Source: Candidatus Binataceae bacterium (GTDB lineage Bacteria > Desulfobacterota > Binatia > Binatales > Binataceae). From it: a stretch of DNA of 44,364 nt. Positions 2,269 to 40,287 of this stretch are shown in pieces (position 1 is the stretch's first letter; each line of letters begins with the position of its first letter). Location: positions 1 to 44,364 of the forward strand of contig JASHOJ010000016.1 of the NCBI GenBank assembly GCA_030041155.1, written 5' to 3'. A program made the position numbers and the translations under genes. Below the pieces are notes generated by a model that was given only the letters and a program-made list of their open reading frames with translations, searched no databases and was not told the DNA's origin.

Positions 2269-3336
2269 TTGGCGAATCAATCGGCAAACAAGACGGTCGT
2301 CGTTTTTCCCGGTGATGACGCCTCTCCGGAGGCGATGAACGCCGCGATGGAGGTGCTGCGCGCGCTCAGCCTGCCGATCAATTACGTTGAGTTCCCGCCG
2401 GGCGACCAATGGGTGCGCGGCGAGACCGACGTACGCGCGCGCGCGGCAATCGACGCCTCGGATGCGACTTTGTTCGGGTCCACCTCGGGCAAGACCACCG
2501 CGATAACCTATCTGCGCTGGGGCAAAGAGACTTACGCGAACGTGCGGCCCGCGAAATGGTCCAAAGGGTACCGAAGCCCGATGGCCAATCCCGACGGTAT
2601 CGATTTCGTTATCGTGCGCGAAAATCTGGAGGACCTGTACTTGGGGCTCGAAGGCCCGCTTGAGACGCTCGAGCCTTTGAAGCTCCACAGCAGAATCTTG
2701 AGGCGTCAGCTCGACACCCGCCAGCACGGCATCTATGCAATCAAAGTGATCACCGAGCGCAACACGCGCCGGATCGCGGATTTCGCGTGCCGCCTGGCAC
2801 AGAAGCGCAAGCGCGCCGGCGGCAAGGGCAAGCTTACCTGCACCTCCAAGTACAACATGCTGCCGGCTGCGGACGGCTACTTCCGTCAGATCGTGCAGGA
2901 AACCGCCGCGAAATATCCGGAGATCAGATACGAGCAGTTTATTGTCGACGATTTCGCGCGGCGGCTGGTCGCCTCCCCGCACGATCTGGATGTGGTCGTG
3001 ATGCCGAACCTCTACGGCGACATCCTTTCGGATGCTGCCGCGGGGATTATCGGCGGGCTCGGACTCGCACCCAGTGGATGTTACGGCGAAAATTATGCCT
3101 ATTTCGAGTCGGTGCACGGCACCGCGCCGGATATCATGGGGATGGGAATTATCAATCCCAGCGCGACAATCCTTTCGGCTGCCCTGATGCTGGAATATCT
3201 GGATTTCGCGGAAGCTGGACGGCGGCTGGAAGCCGCCGTCCGCAAGGTCTACAGCGATGGCCGGGTGCTCACGCCCGATCAGGGCGGAAGAGCCAAAACC
3301 GCCGACTTCGCACGCGAGGTAATTGCCAACCTTTGA
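2269..3336 (+). CDS. isocitrate/isopropylmalate dehydrogenase family protein
   Basis: A beta-decarboxylating dehydrogenase of 355 residues, starting at TTG (2269) with GGAG at 2259-2262. Family marks in order: YANVRPAKW (about 90), FVIVRENLEDLYLG (about 113-126, substrate-site region), the lysine/tyrosine region KYNMLPAADGYF (about 200), VVMPNLYGDILSDAAAGIIG (metal-binding aspartates, about 243-262), and FESVHGTAPDIMG (cofactor site, about 280). These oxidise a 2-hydroxy-acid (isocitrate, 3-isopropylmalate, homoisocitrate or tartrate) with NAD(P) and Mg/Mn, then decarboxylate it. The Y-A-N-V-R-P and R-E-N-L-E-D wording fits the NAD-dependent isocitrate-type branch, but the substrate is not certain. 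There are no leucine-pathway or TCA neighbours to help. It is a cytosolic enzyme of normal length. Confidence 0.88.
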   Translation: MANQSANKTVVVFPGDDASPEAMNAAMEVLRALSLPINYVEFPPGDQWVRGETDVRARAAIDASDATLFGSTSGKTTAITYLRWGKETYANVRPAKWSKGYRSPMANPDGIDFVIVRENLEDLYLGLEGPLETLEPLKLHSRILRRQLDTRQHGIYAIKVITERNTRRIADFACRLAQKRKRAGGKGKLTCTSKYNMLPAADGYFRQIVQETAAKYPEIRYEQFIVDDFARRLVASPHDLDVVVMPNLYGDILSDAAAGIIGGLGLAPSGCYGENYAYFESVHGTAPDIMGMGIINPSATILSAALMLEYLDFAEAGRRLEAAVRKVYSDGRVLTPDQGGRAKTADFAREVIANL

Positions 3337-3416
3337 CCGAACTCGCCGACCAGCCGCAAACCAGCCTCACCATAGCCCTTGAGACATGCGTTTAAAGCGG
3401 CCAACGGAGCGTTTCC

Positions 3417-3433
3417 TGCCGTTGACAACGGCA
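3417..3433. other. short perfect stem-loop downstream of the dehydrogenase
   Basis: TGCCGTT and AACGGCA form a perfect 7-bp stem around a GAC loop, 80 bases after the dehydrogenase stop. No T-run follows on either strand, so an intrinsic terminator is not well supported. It could be a transcript 3'-end stabiliser. The TTGACA inside it has no matching -10 box. Confidence 0.3.
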
Positions 3434-3484
3434 AAGTGGTATTGCACCCACGTCCGCGATAGCCAGCGGCCTTAAAATCGAATC

Positions 3485-3512
3485 TTGACTCTGGATAGGC
3501 CGGCGCTAGATT
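3485..3512 (+). promoter_or_regulatory. candidate sigma70-type promoter of a small unit
   Basis: TTGACT (3485-3490), a 16-base spacer and TAGATT (3507-3512) match the -35 and -10 consensus at five and four of six positions. The expected start would be near 3519, about 44 bases before the small ORF at 3563. The position in front of an ORF with a perfect Shine-Dalgarno and a downstream terminator raises its credibility. Consensus use in this organism is unknown. Confidence 0.4.
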
Positions 3513-3562
3513 AGCCAGAATCTTCATCAGATTCGGCAATTCACCAGAAGGAGGTGCTGCCC

Positions 3563-3628
3563 ATGAAAAACCAGAAGAATCGAACCTGCTCGGCAGGCGG
3601 CACTGCTTCCGCGTCTCTGACCAATTAG
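3563..3628 (+). CDS. 21-residue small protein with a perfect Shine-Dalgarno
   Basis: ATG at 3563 opens a 21-codon frame ending in TAG at 3626-3628. AAGGAGGTG at 3548-3556 is fully complementary to the standard 16S 3' end and sits eight bases before the ATG, stronger than any other ribosome site noticed in the window. The peptide is basic at the start (MKNQKNRTC) and small/polar at the end (SAGGTASASLTN), with one cysteine and no membrane segment. A candidate promoter (3485-3512) and a hairpin with a T-rich tail (3665-3690) bracket it, so it may be its own transcript. It matches no family I recognise. It could be a leader or a short regulatory RNA with an ORF; no maturation enzyme lies nearby to suggest a modified peptide. 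Confidence 0.45.
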   Translation: MKNQKNRTCSAGGTASASLTN

Positions 3629-3664
3629 TCAGCTTGCGTTAACATTCGGATAGCGGCCGCGGAA

Positions 3665-3690
3665 CCGTGGTTTTCCACGGCGTTTTCGCT
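3665..3690 (+). terminator. probable intrinsic terminator
   Basis: A perfect 6-bp GC-rich stem (CCGTGG, loop TTTT, CCACGG at 3665-3680) is followed by the T-rich tail CGTTTTCGCTTTTCC. It lies 37 bases after the small ORF at 3563-3628 and well before the RIO kinase, as expected for the end of a separate short transcript. Confidence 0.5.
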
Positions 3691-3813
3691 TTTCCTTTGT
3701 TAAACAAGAGCGGTAAGCCCTCGCCAGCCCTCAATAGAGGAGCGCGCGTCGCTGCGTCCAGCCTCGGAATCCGAGATGGATTAACTGAATGTCAACAAGA
3801 GGAGGAAAGCATA

Positions 3814-3915
3814 ATGCAAAACTCATTCGCAAATTGCGCAAATTGCCTCGAATTTCGATCAACTCCGTATCCATCAAACCGTGGAGCACCTGATGACCGA
3901 GAATCAGCAGATTGA
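3814..3915 (+). CDS. 33-residue leader ORF overlapping the RIO kinase start
   Basis: ATG at 3814 has GGAGG eight bases upstream (3801-3805) within a longer purine run, while the kinase start has only GGAG. The frame encodes 33 residues including FANCANCLEF, where a tandem 9-bp repeat (GCAAATTGC twice, 3829-3846) gives the ANCANC sequence, and ends at 3915. It overlaps the first codons of the kinase in another frame, which is the arrangement used for translational coupling. No family is recognised. It may be a regulatory leader peptide rather than a functional protein. An upstream in-frame ATG exists at 3667, but it lies inside the terminator. Confidence 0.4.
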   Translation: MQNSFANCANCLEFRSTPYPSNRGAPDDRESAD

Positions 3916-4639
3916 AGCAAGTAACGCACTCGAATCGTTTTTTGGCGATGGGCTCATAATGGAAGTCCTCTACATCGTTCGCAGCGGCAAGGAAGCGACG
4001 GTCTATTGCTGCCGCGCCGCGCCCGAGACCGGACACGCTCTGCTCGCGGCAAAGGTCTACCGCGGACTCGAACAGCGCGCGTTTCGCAACGACTCTATCT
4101 ACCAGGCCGGGCGTGGCGCGAATTGGGAGACCAGAAAGCTGCGCGCGTTCAAAAACAAGACCGCGCATGGGCGCGAGGTTCAGTTCGCAACCTGGATCGG
4201 CTCCGAATACCAAACCCTGCGCACGCTCTATGAGGCCGGCGCCGATGTTCCCCAGCCGATAGCCCGCGCCCGCAGTGCAATCCTGATGGAGTATCTCGGC
4301 GACCTGGACGGCGCCGCGCCGATGCTGGTGCGGACCGCTATGGAGGAGAGCGCGGCTCAGGCGTGCCTGCGCGCGATTCTTGAAAACGTAGCGCTATGGC
4401 TTGCGAATCATCTGATTCACGGCGATCTTTCCGCTTACAATCTTCTCTACTGGAACGATCGGGTGGTCGCGATTGATTTTCCGCAGGCTGTCGATGCGCG
4501 GATGAATCCCAATGCCCGCGCACTGCTAGGGCGCGATATCGAGAATGTCTGCGCCCATTTTCAGCGCTTCGGGCTTGGCGCGAACGGCGGTCGCATCGCG
4601 GAGCAGATGTGGCGCCAGTATCGCGGGGGAAGGCTGTGA
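3893..4639 (+). CDS. RIO1-family atypical protein kinase
   Basis: A 248-residue protein from ATG 3893 (GGAG at 3883-3886); a GTG four codons earlier is the alternative. It is a RIO-type kinase. The nucleotide-binding start VRSGKEATVYCC is near residue 25, with the lysine of AAKVYR near 48. The RIO1-like insert contains a run from NDSIYQAGRG to WETRKLRAFK. The catalytic loop is HGDLSAYNLLYW (about 178), and the metal-binding IDFPQAVD is near 196. The closing segment is RDIENVCAHF. In archaea and eukaryotes RIO1 matures the small ribosomal subunit; bacterial members are poorly characterised. All key residues are present, so it should be active as a kinase or ATPase. It is a single gene, probably translationally coupled to the leader ORF. 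Confidence 0.88.
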   Translation: MTENQQIEASNALESFFGDGLIMEVLYIVRSGKEATVYCCRAAPETGHALLAAKVYRGLEQRAFRNDSIYQAGRGANWETRKLRAFKNKTAHGREVQFATWIGSEYQTLRTLYEAGADVPQPIARARSAILMEYLGDLDGAAPMLVRTAMEESAAQACLRAILENVALWLANHLIHGDLSAYNLLYWNDRVVAIDFPQAVDARMNPNARALLGRDIENVCAHFQRFGLGANGGRIAEQMWRQYRGGRL

Positions 4640-4675
4640 CGCTACTTGCGATTCGGAAGAACGAGCGTCGGCGAA

Positions 4676-4861
4676 TCAATCGTCGCGCTGGCGAAGAGGC
4701 TCTGGATTGGACGCGGGCGCGGACACCGGCGGAGTTTTGCGGCGCGCCCACCAGAAGATGTCGCACAACACGCCGCACGCTGCGACATAGATGGGCGGCG
4801 GTTCGCGCGTTGGCTGCGGCGCCGTATCGTTTGCAGCAGTATCGTCGGGAGAATTGCGCAT
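4676..4861 (-). CDS. possible 61-residue protein downstream of the acyltransferase
   Basis: A minus-strand ORF that begins 41 bases after the LpxL-like gene ends on the same strand. The middle is hydrophobic (IYVAACGVLCDIFWWARRK) and the ends are proline-rich and polar. Third codon positions are GC-rich like the real genes here. No good ribosome site is visible before the ATG, and no family is recognised. The opposite strand also stays open across this stretch but reads as arginine-rich noise. Without homologues it may be non-coding; otherwise 4640-4902 holds nothing identifiable. Confidence 0.3.
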   Translation of the reverse strand: MRNSPDDTAANDTAPQPTREPPPIYVAACGVLCDIFWWARRKTPPVSAPASNPEPLRQRDD

Positions 4862-4902
4862 ACGTTACCGATGCTAGCTGTACACCGGGTTTCGGTAAAC
4901 GA

Positions 4903-5823
4903 TCAGTAGAATCGCGCTTCCCCTTCGGGCCGCGTCTTCCACCTTCGATGAATCCAATTCCAGTGATCGGGATGGGCTCGGATGATTTCCTCAATTGCTT
5001 TTACGAAGCGCTGAGTGTTTTCGCGATTGTCGGCTTCGCGGTCCTCGGTCTTTACGAGCTCGATCGGAGCCTTGATGGTGATCTTATGGTGGGAACTATC
5101 GCCCTCGCGCACCATGAAACAGGGCACCACCGGCGCGCCGGTGGCGCGCGCCAGCCGTGCAACCGCGTCGCTGGTCGAGGCAGGCTTTGAGAAGAAGTCC
5201 ACGAATACGCCGCGGCGCACGTCGAGGTCCAAGGCGACCCCCACCATCCAGTTGCGCCGAAGCGCCCTCATCGCGTCCATGCCGCCGTCGCGGCGCTCGA
5301 TTATGCGGTTTCCGAACCGGGTCCGCGCCTCCCGCACCGCGTGGTCGATAAAAGGATTTCGCAGCGCGCGATAGACGACTGCGATTCGGTAGCCATAAAT
5401 CGAGTGCGCGATGTTAAGGAGCTCGAAATTGCCGAAATGCGCGGTCAGAACGATTATCCCGCGCCCGGCAGACATGCGTTCCGCCTCATCCCAATACTGC
5501 TTGCCCTCATAGGTCGCGAACCGCTCGATATTGGAGCGGTCGAGTTCGCCGAGATGCGCCCATTCGGCCGCCATCCGTCCCCAGTTCCGATACACGCCGC
5601 GCAGCAGTTCGAGCCTCTGGGCCGAAGTCATGCCTGGAAAGGCAATTTCCATGTTCTTTATCGCGATCGGGCGGTTTGGCCGGTCGATCTCCATCGCGAT
5701 GCGGCCGAGACCCGAACCGATTCTGACCGCGCGAGCAAGCGGCAGCGCCCGCAGCGAGGCAATCCCAATCGAGGCGCCGGTCCATTCCAGGCGCGCGCTT
5801 ATGCCGCCAATCTGCCGAGGCAT
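4903..5823 (-). CDS. LpxL/HtrB-type lipid A acyltransferase
   Basis: A 306-residue member of the lysophospholipid/lipid A late acyltransferase family. The catalytic HX4E motif is visible as His129 and Glu134 in LTAHFGNFELLN. The family blocks YRNWGRMAAEW (about 78), VYRALRNP (about 151), the DLDVRRGVFVDFF segment (about 198) and ARATGAPVVPCFMVREG (about 223) follow, then the C-terminal HPDHWNWIHRRWKTRP block. These enzymes transfer an acyl chain from acyl-ACP to Kdo2-lipid A (or related lipids) at the inner membrane. N-terminal hydrophobicity is weak, so membrane attachment may be peripheral. The late-acylation role fits the lipid A cluster a few kilobases away; which position and chain cannot be told. 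The start ATG has AGGA just upstream. Confidence 0.88.
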   Translation of the reverse strand: MPRQIGGISARLEWTGASIGIASLRALPLARAVRIGSGLGRIAMEIDRPNRPIAIKNMEIAFPGMTSAQRLELLRGVYRNWGRMAAEWAHLGELDRSNIERFATYEGKQYWDEAERMSAGRGIIVLTAHFGNFELLNIAHSIYGYRIAVVYRALRNPFIDHAVREARTRFGNRIIERRDGGMDAMRALRRNWMVGVALDLDVRRGVFVDFFSKPASTSDAVARLARATGAPVVPCFMVREGDSSHHKITIKAPIELVKTEDREADNRENTQRFVKAIEEIIRAHPDHWNWIHRRWKTRPEGEARFY

Positions 5824-37878: not shown

Positions 37879-40287
37879 ATGTCGCCTGAGTCATCTGCAT
37901 CGCCTCCCGCCCGACAGCCACAGGCGCTCTCAAGCGGGCCTATCGTATTGATCCTGCTGATAGTGCTCGCGTTCGCGATCGCACAAAAAGACGGACCGCC
38001 GCCGGTGGTTGGATCGACCGCGCCTTCCTCCCGATTCTCCGCCGCGCGCGCGATGCGCGATGTGCGCGCGATCGCGAAGTCGCCGCATCCGCTCGCGTCG
38101 GCCGCCGACGCAAAAGTCCACGACTATCTTGTAAACCGCCTGAAGGAGTTCGGGCTTGCACCCGAGATCGAGACCGCGATCGTGGCGGCGAAGAGTCGCG
38201 TCGGACCCGAAACTTTCGCAACCGTCCACAATATCATCGCGAAGCTGCCCGGCGCCGCGAGCACCGGCGCGGTCATGATGGTCGCACATTACGATTCGGT
38301 GCCGAGCGGCCCTGGCGCCGCCGACGATGCATCATCGGTCGCGGCGCTGCTGGAAACCGTTCGCGCTCTCAGAACCGCTCCGCCGCTGCGCAACGACATA
38401 ATCGTGCTGCTCACCGACGGCGAAGAACTTGGGCTGCTCGGCGCGCGCGCATTCGTCGAGAACTATTCCGGACTTCGCGGCATCAGGGTTGTGCTCAACT
38501 TCGACATGCGCGGCGATTACGGACCGGTCCTGATGCTCCAGACCAGCCCCGATAACACCTGGATGATTCGTGCGCTCGCGAAAACCCGCTACCCGCGCGC
38601 GAATTCGCTTGCGGCGTCCATCTACAAGCGGATGCCCAACGAGTCCGATTTCTCCGTGTTCCTGCACAGGGACCTGGCAGGAATGAATTTCGCCGCGATT
38701 CGCGGCCTGGTCCGCTATCACACGAGACTCGACAACGTCACCAATCTCGATCCTCGTTCGGTGCAGAACCAGGGCAGCTACGCGCTCGCGCTCGCACGAG
38801 ACTTTGGCGCGATGGACCTGCGCGCGGCGCATCGCGGCGACTCGGTGTTCTTCACTCTCGGCCGCCTGTTTCACTATCCCGCGGGGCTTGCGCTGCCGCT
38901 TGCGATCATCACCGCCCTGATCGTGATTGGCGCGCTTACCGCCGGCAATCGCCTCGGCAGGATGCCGCCGCTTGGTTTAACTTTCGGCGCTCTGATCTTC
39001 ATCGGAGCCCTCGTGATTGCGATTATCGAGGGCGAAATCGTATCCGCGCTGATGCGATGGATTTGCGCGGCCGAGATGCTGCCGAGCGGAACCACCTACG
39101 GCGGTTTCTGGTTCGCGCTCGCCTCGACTTTTATCGTCATCGCGTCGCTGCTCGCGTTCTACTTATGGATGCGGCGATATGTGTCGCGCGCGAACCTCGG
39201 CGGCGGTGCGCTCGCGATCCTCGCGATAATCGCGCTGGTCGCCGGCGCCGACTTTCTGTCGGGCAGTTATTTGATCGCATGGCCGGTCCTGTTTGCCGCT
39301 TTTGCGATTCATTACCGATGGACCAGACTGGGCGGCGATGATCCCTTGTTCTCGATTTTTGCCGCGCTCGCCGCGCTGATTCCGTGCACGATCTTGATCG
39401 CGCCCGGGCTCTTTACCAATGCCGAGGGCACTCGCGGCGCGATGCTGCTTGGCGTGATCATGATTGCCCTGCTGTTCGGGTTCTACATCCCTTACACCGA
39501 TCTCCTGACCGAGAGACACGAGCGGTCTGTCTCGGTCGTCCTCGCGATCGCGGCGGTGCTCTGCTTCCTCGGCGGCATCGGCGCGAGTCAATTCAGCAAG
39601 GCTCATCCGCGCCCCGACAGCATCTTTTATCTTCTCGATTCTGATAGCGGCAAAGCGACCTGGGAGAGCCTCGATCGTGCGCCCGACCCTTTCACCGCTC
39701 AGTTCTTTCAGAATCACGTGCGCAGAGGCTCGCTCGCGATTGTCACCGGGATGAGCGAGCCCGCGTTGAAAGAAGCCCCGCTACAGGCGAAGTTCAACCA
39801 CGCGGCGCTCTTCAGCAGCCTGAGCGACGGCGCGACGATCGAGGGCGATGCGCCCGCCGCGGAGCTTGCGCCCCCAACTCTCGAGGTTATCGGCGACACA
39901 AGTACCGCTGGCTTGCGAACTCTGCGCCTGCATATCGCGTCAGCGCGAGGCGCGCCGATAATCTGGATCGCGATACCGCGCGCCGTAACCGTGCTCAGCT
40001 CTTCGATCGATGACAAATCAAGCGATGCGGGACCAATCCCCGGCTATACGGCATGGGTTTGGGGAGTATCGCAGGCCGGTTTCGATTTCACGCTCACCAC
40101 CCGGTATCCCGATCTCTTTCCGGTGACAATTATCGATCAGACCGATGGTTTGCCGGCACTTACCGCGATGAAAATCCATCCGCGCGGCCCGGCGCAGATG
40201 CCCTCGCCCGACTTGTTTTTCGATTCCGCCACGCTGGTAAAACGAACGTTTATCCCCGGCGCACAGATGACGACGCCCAATGCCTGA
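37879..40287 (+). CDS. membrane-anchored M28-family zinc metallopeptidase
   Basis: An 802-residue protein. An N-terminal membrane anchor (about 19-36, GPIVLILLIVLAFAIA) precedes an M28 catalytic domain. Zinc ligands are visible: His in VAHYDSVPSGPGAADDASS (about 135, His and Asp), the Glu pair in LLTDGEELGLLGARAF (about 177), Asp in LNFDMRGDYGP (about 206), and His in VRYHTRLDNVTNLDP (about 279). Then come about eight membrane helices (about 335-580) and a beta-rich extracytoplasmic domain of about 220 residues. This layout matches the eukaryotic ER metallopeptidase (ERMP1/Fxna) type, with bacterial homologues of unknown substrate. Single gene; not linked to the neighbours. Confidence 0.88.
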   Translation: MSPESSASPPARQPQALSSGPIVLILLIVLAFAIAQKDGPPPVVGSTAPSSRFSAARAMRDVRAIAKSPHPLASAADAKVHDYLVNRLKEFGLAPEIETAIVAAKSRVGPETFATVHNIIAKLPGAASTGAVMMVAHYDSVPSGPGAADDASSVAALLETVRALRTAPPLRNDIIVLLTDGEELGLLGARAFVENYSGLRGIRVVLNFDMRGDYGPVLMLQTSPDNTWMIRALAKTRYPRANSLAASIYKRMPNESDFSVFLHRDLAGMNFAAIRGLVRYHTRLDNVTNLDPRSVQNQGSYALALARDFGAMDLRAAHRGDSVFFTLGRLFHYPAGLALPLAIITALIVIGALTAGNRLGRMPPLGLTFGALIFIGALVIAIIEGEIVSALMRWICAAEMLPSGTTYGGFWFALASTFIVIASLLAFYLWMRRYVSRANLGGGALAILAIIALVAGADFLSGSYLIAWPVLFAAFAIHYRWTRLGGDDPLFSIFAALAALIPCTILIAPGLFTNAEGTRGAMLLGVIMIALLFGFYIPYTDLLTERHERSVSVVLAIAAVLCFLGGIGASQFSKAHPRPDSIFYLLDSDSGKATWESLDRAPDPFTAQFFQNHVRRGSLAIVTGMSEPALKEAPLQAKFNHAALFSSLSDGATIEGDAPAAELAPPTLEVIGDTSTAGLRTLRLHIASARGAPIIWIAIPRAVTVLSSSIDDKSSDAGPIPGYTAWVWGVSQAGFDFTLTTRYPDLFPVTIIDQTDGLPALTAMKIHPRGPAQMPSPDLFFDSATLVKRTFIPGAQMTTPNA

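Follow-up and report, generated by a model that had tools for sequence, protein, structure and literature searches.

Gene organization

The window is the whole 44,364-nucleotide stretch of DNA that was analysed, from a Candidatus Binataceae bacterium. Near its 5' end, a promoter, two short upstream open reading frames (uORF1 and uORF2), each with its own Shine-Dalgarno (SD) sequence, and a terminator hairpin precede the gene of a RIO1-like protein kinase. The features are as follows, segments 1 to 4 being the stretches whose pairings are discussed below:

3485-3512, forward strand: sigma70-like promoter TTGACT-16-TAGATT, assigned from sequence
3547-3562, forward strand: segment 1, which contains SD1 AAGGAGGTG (3548-3556) and extends to the base before the start codon; predicted 5' arm of the anti-antiterminator, assigned from pairing
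3563-3628, forward strand: uORF1, 21 codons, encoding MKNQKNRTCSAGGTASASLTN followed by a stop, assigned from the ORF and its SD; peptide not conserved
3595-3613, forward strand: segment 2, complementary to segment 1 through 3596-3609 and to segment 3 through TTCCGCG (3607-3613)
3658-3700, forward strand: segments 3 and 4, made up of CGCGGAA (3658-3664), the terminator hairpin CCGTGG/CCACGG (3665-3680) and a T-rich tail, assigned from sequence and pairing
3800-3915, forward strand: SD2 AGGAGG (3800-3805) and uORF2 (ATG at 3814, 33 codons, 3814-3915), out of frame with the kinase gene and overlapping its start
3893-4639, forward strand: RIO1-like protein kinase, the putatively regulated gene; ATG at 3893 with an in-frame GTG at 3881 as a possible start, 248-252 aa

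An earlier note on this DNA had described the promoter motif, the SD, the 21-codon ORF and the hairpin with its T-rich tail, and each of them is found at these coordinates. The -35 element TTGACT (3485-3490) and the -10 element TAGATT (3507-3512), separated by 16 nt, match the consensus at 9 of 12 positions and would place the transcript start near 3519. The hairpin reads CCGTGGTTTTCCACGG and its tail CGTTTTCGCTTTTCC. Promoter-type sites (2 found per 9 kb, 2.8 expected from shuffling) and terminator-type hairpins (11 found, 8.4 expected) are both within chance when taken alone, and minimum free energy folding alone, with z -0.09 for the window, makes overall stability no evidence either.

The GGAGG of SD1 ends 8 nt 5' of the ATG at 3563. 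This is the sole forward-strand start in the 44-kb window that combines a strong SD with an ORF of 8-25 codons; by the same mechanical criterion, the only other strong-SD short ORFs of the window lie at 37894 and 44197 on the reverse strand. The remark that no other gene in the window has an equally complete anti-SD match holds as well, with AAGGAGGTG occurring once in 44 kb, both strands counted, and AAGGAGG twice.

The unit of promoter, SD, ORF and terminator is indeed one that annotation would overlook, and its predicted terminated transcript is about 150-170 nt long. The description of this unit as self-contained did not survive, as the AGGAGG at 3800 would drive the ORF at 3814-3915, which runs into the start of the downstream kinase gene. 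From sequence comparison, positions 3485-3915 are almost certainly a conserved leader at the 5' end of the RIO1-like kinase transcript. The overlap of uORF2 with the kinase start suggests a second, translational layer of control, with coupling or repression of the kinase as candidate roles for uORF2.

Membership of the kinase in the RIO family follows from its match to PF01163 (2e-34, 119.3 bits against a gathering score of 22). SGKEATVY, HGDLSAYN and IDFPQAVD, read directly from the protein, look like the RIO1 catalytic motifs. The nearest NCBI family, the PA4780-family RIO1-like kinases (NF041645), shares the RIO domain with the window kinase, which scores 175.9 bits against a cut-off of 350 bits and is therefore no PA4780 equivalog; in addition, the inspected proteobacterial plasmid homologues (L118 and L119) are without a leader. 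Eukaryotic RIO kinases have a role in the maturation of the small ribosomal subunit. No paper on the function of bacterial RIO kinases was found in the library searched.

The uORF1 peptide

The earlier note had proposed a real small protein as one of two possibilities, and this one is not borne out. A search of 54 related genomes with the uORF1 peptide gave chance matches only, and among close Planctomycetota relatives the pN/pS of uORF1 is about 2.2, a value at odds with purifying selection on the peptide. The uORF1 peptides of homologous leaders are 10-31 residues long, are unrelated between groups and share no repeated residue; even within the window's own family, the peptides encoded at this place do not resemble that of the window. 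A free peptide is what would be expected if the position of the ribosome is what gets read.

Lack of conservation of the SD-ORF in close relatives had been named in advance as grounds for refutation. It is observed, and it counts against the protein; it leaves the leader untouched because the kinase itself is missing from these relatives. What is conserved is the position before a RIO kinase gene, the SD, the start codon, the pairing of SD and anti-SD and, in many cases, the terminator, which is the pattern of a cis-acting leader.

Distribution of the kinase and its leader

A DNA search with positions 3480-3720 across 57 genomes returned no match other than the window itself, not even within the family. 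The kinase is sporadic, being present in the window's genome and two others of the family among 54 related genomes, which explains why leader DNA and peptide find no match in relatives. Three other kinase copies of the family (L006, L007 and L008) are preceded by a promoter, a strong SD, an ORF of 20-21 codons, a CCACGG/CCGTGG terminator and a second SD-ORF; the spacing is similar to that of the window, and the sequences have little in common with it. Matching anatomy was found on a contig filed as Dehalococcoidia (L003) and before Planctomycetota relatives of the kinase (at least 40% identity).

The architecture shared by these leaders consists of a strong SD, a uORF1 of 10-31 codons, a hairpin terminator (in most), a second overlapping uORF and the kinase gene. 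Of 32 leaders, 30 pass a strict SD-uORF criterion, for which the background rate is about 0.01 per 450 nt. Promoter-like -35 and -10 elements were seen by eye 5' of SD1 in most homologous leaders, and most have a uORF2 counterpart with a strong SD, 59-97 nt 5' of the kinase start, that overlaps this start in another reading frame. The terminator stands at the equivalent relative position in 21 of 32 homologous leaders, the window included; about a third of these first 32 are without a convincing one, among them several from Planctomycetota with no obvious terminator.

A later draw of 400 genomes from the phylum of the Chloroflexota record contained 93 with kinase relatives. Among the top 30 loci, the majority again had the leader, and the leaderless ones include a group of kinases with an extended N-terminus; in all 17 Chloroflexota leaders analysed, an intrinsic terminator lies between the uORF and the kinase gene. 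The architecture apparently extends to a Deinococcus, since the plasmid copy of Deinococcus radiophilus, like L114, has an ORF with a strong SD and, further downstream, complementary bases (both judged by eye and kept outside the statistics). A tree of 44 kinases has a branch with 100/100 support that separates the kinases with a leader, L114 and the Deinococcus copy from ten leaderless kinases. No kinase relatives were found in phages and viral contigs. By this survey, the leader stands before nearly all inspectable kinases of one clade that spans several phyla, with unrelated DNA and peptide sequences.

A covariance model of the Planctomycetota leader scored the kinase leaders of 13 Planctomycetota genomes at 61-110 bits and everything else at 36 bits or less. 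When 17 genomes were searched for the leader 5' of other genes, the strong matches were kinase leaders only, under a clade-specific model that divergent leaders could escape.

In some relatives (L055, for example), genes for an isopropylmalate-dehydrogenase-like (IPMDH-like) protein and an LpxL-like acyltransferase are convergent and 39 bp apart. The corresponding gap in the window is about 1.57 kb (3336-4903) and contains leader and kinase; other relatives carry 1.1-2.7 kb of different DNA there. This suggests that leader and kinase arrived in the window together. Across the compared loci (L055-L068), the gap ranges from 39 bp to 2.7 kb and resembles an insertion hotspot. Of these loci, only the window has the kinase in it, and in G029 (L052) a kinase gene also adjoins the LpxL-like gene.

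Alternative pairings in the leader RNA

Segment 1 of the window pairs with 3596-3609 at -21.2 kcal/mol (z -2.45 against shuffles) and favours its own downstream partner over those of all 31 foreign leaders. The position of segment 2 differs from leader to leader, being late in uORF1 or just past it. Between SD and ATG the sequence changes freely from leader to leader, and the complementary stretch changes along with it, as in GGTGCTGCC/GGCGGCACT in the window, GGCGCAC/GTGCGCC (L008), GGCGCGTT/AACGCGC (L091), GGTCTCG/CGAGACC (L107) and GACAACG/CGTTGTC (L090). Own pairing exceeds foreign pairing for 1:2 by at least 6 SD (permutation p of at most 5e-5), both in 32 leaders and in the 20 that are not close to one another; in the Chloroflexota set, p is 0.017. 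Compensatory changes tell the same story, with 11 double-changed cells for 1:2 in the Planctomycetota alignment against 5.0 +/- 1.7 after shuffling, and fewer on sliding.

The pairing of segment 2 with the 5' arm and loop of the terminator (2:3) is specific at p=5e-5 in 19 leaders and 3e-4 in 12 diverse ones, and at p=0.001 in the 17 Chloroflexota leaders, which were obtained after the hypothesis had been formed. Shared ancestry is only partly removed in these permutation tests, and the diverse subsets agree with the full sets; anchors and terminators were chosen by eye, ahead of the statistics. RNAalifold recovered only the terminator from the Planctomycetota alignment because segment 1 is misaligned by one base in some rows, and counts for named structures and per-leader permutation were used in its place.

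Pairings 1:2 and 2:3 are mutually exclusive and both are kept by covariation, as is demanded of an attenuator. The predicted structures 1:2, 2:3 and 3:4 are an anti-antiterminator, an antiterminator and a terminator, respectively.

Modelling of ribosome occupancy

The effect of a ribosome was modelled by ensemble folding in which covered bases were barred from pairing; this is an equilibrium treatment that ignores the kinetics of transcription. Over 16 leaders, the terminator had a probability of 0.77 in the ribosome-free state; placing a ribosome on the start codon lowered this to 0.22, placing it on the stop codon raised it to 0.96, and a control with the upstream part shuffled stayed at 0.95 in all states. 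For L096, terminator probability was 0.00 as long as the ribosome sat on any of codons 1-4 and at least 0.96 from codon 5 onward. In this model, the Planctomycetota leader resembles a sensor of ribosomes that are held up on the start codon or close to it.

The behaviour is not uniform. The leader of the window shows no switch at equilibrium (1.00/0.99/0.99 for none, start and stop), L007 is near flat (0.87/0.81/0.87) and the response of L006 is modest (0.86/0.60/0.71). A clean start-stall switch as a general rule failed on the fresh set of 17 Chloroflexota leaders, whose means are 0.72/0.65/0.74, and this polarity is clean only in most Planctomycetota and in L003. In the weak responders, segment 2 lies inside uORF1, and kinetics, another ribosome position or translational control may decide the outcome.

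Proposed mechanism and alternatives

Control by attenuation through uORF1 can be held with reasonable confidence, and positions 3485-3915 probably act as a transcription attenuator that responds to ribosomes and controls the RIO1-like kinase gene. With uORF1 free of ribosomes, 1:2 would form and hide SD1, the terminator would fold and transcription would stop after a short RNA of about 170 nt. A ribosome held at or just past the start of uORF1 would occupy segment 1, so that 2:3 pairs and RNA polymerase continues into uORF2 and the kinase gene. Where segment 2 lies past the stop codon, a ribosome that reaches the stop would cover segment 2 and restore termination. The leader would then respond to initiation or early elongation that is slowed or arrested, as might be caused by initiation-arresting antibiotics, cold or faulty ribosomes. 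That stalling at the start means expression is an even bet, and a poorer one for the window's own copy.

An unlikely reading, for which several observations nevertheless speak, is translational or temperature-like control, in which the SD1/anti-SD hairpin limits uORF1 translation, the terminator ends a constitutive short RNA and the kinase is made through its own or uORF2-coupled translation. Sequestration of the SD is the best-conserved pairing, some leaders have no clear intrinsic terminator, the kinase start in most leaders falls inside the out-of-frame uORF2, and the terminator of the window is predicted to be stable in every state. Yet pure SD sequestration has no need of 2:3, which is specific in two separate sets, and the strong ribosome-mask switch in Planctomycetota speaks against it as well. 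The short RNA could also be the product itself, a trans-acting or dual-function small RNA that ends at the terminator independently of the kinase. The predicted terminated product is about 170 nt long, and fragments of 5' leaders are able to act in trans; a seed region without sequence conservation, a position that is always 5' of the kinase and the absence of an Rfam match make it very improbable.

That a 21-residue protein acts in trans is barely credible. The SD is near-ideal and the ORF is probably translated, but there is no relative of the peptide in 54 genomes, the peptides in the same place are unrelated and differ in length, pN/pS among close relatives is about 2.2 and the position 5' of the kinase is fixed. 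The leader ORF and the mutually exclusive hairpins also recall the trp and ilv leaders, as would suit a classical amino-acid attenuator; the uORF1 peptides have no common repeated residue, though, and the kinase is tied to no single amino acid. A ligand riboswitch should have a conserved aptamer-like core, and none is seen where conservation comprises only SD, ATG and complementarity. Neither of these two forms of control is at all to be expected here.

Relation to known systems

The ribosome-responsive attenuator proposed for the RIO leader has its closest counterpart in logic in the vmlR leader of Bacillus subtilis. There, a very short uORF lies inside the anti-antiterminator hairpin, and a ribosome stalled on it blocks this hairpin, so that an antiterminator forms in place of the intrinsic terminator; the encoded peptide can differ (MIN, MDN, MDK) (PMC9226507). 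The likeness lies in this logic and in the variable peptide. In vmlR, the SD is unpaired and the gene encodes an ABCF resistance factor, whereas in the RIO leader the SD is the 5' arm of the hairpin, the gene is that of a RIO kinase, the hosts are of other phyla, the uORFs have 10-31 codons and a second, overlapping uORF follows. The uORF toiL before topAI-yjhQ of Escherichia coli senses translation arrest, with tetracycline and retapamulin stalling ribosomes at its start codon (PMC12121999), which is the kind of signal modelled for the RIO leader. Control of topAI is by translational repression with Rho-dependent termination (PMC12121999); it differs from the RIO leader in not using an intrinsic terminator, and the genes are unrelated.

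No Rfam 15 covariance model matched the window or 20 homologous loci above its gathering score, and no such element was found in the open literature, which was searched to the exclusion of subscription journals. Compared with vmlR and toiL, the new points are the SD as an arm of the switch, the free uORF sequence, the RIO kinase as target and the span of several phyla. It is conceivable, if on balance doubtful, that these leaders form a multi-phylum class of regulatory RNA in which the signal is a ribosome sitting on a start codon and not a peptide or ligand, in which the SD serves as an anti-antiterminator arm and through which RIO kinases are linked to translation-initiation stress. If so, the little-studied bacterial RIO kinases would be translation-stress or ribosome-maintenance factors. 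A conserved leader that apparently senses ribosomes also yields a prediction, open to direct test, of the conditions in which the kinase is required. As its sequence is hardly conserved, the leader is missed by homology searches; that it is detectable only through gene context and covariation suggests that similar leaders have been overlooked elsewhere.

Further features of the leaders

Some features recur in parts of the set. In many Planctomycetota leaders (L096-L107), TTGAC-NN-GTCAA, an almost perfect palindrome about 45-60 nt 5' of SD1, makes up the -35 region, and a repressor operator on top of attenuation is possible. The uORF1 of Planctomycetota (L092-L109) frequently has AACAAGGCC at its end. 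This sequence matches the terminator's 5' arm, with which it could vie for the 3' arm GGCCTTGTT. In Chloroflexota leaders (L153-L166), a second, tandem terminator-like hairpin with the recurrent core GAGGCCATGAGCGTGATGCTCATGGCCTCTTTT and variants of it lies 60-120 nt past uORF1, and L003 has a second hairpin too.
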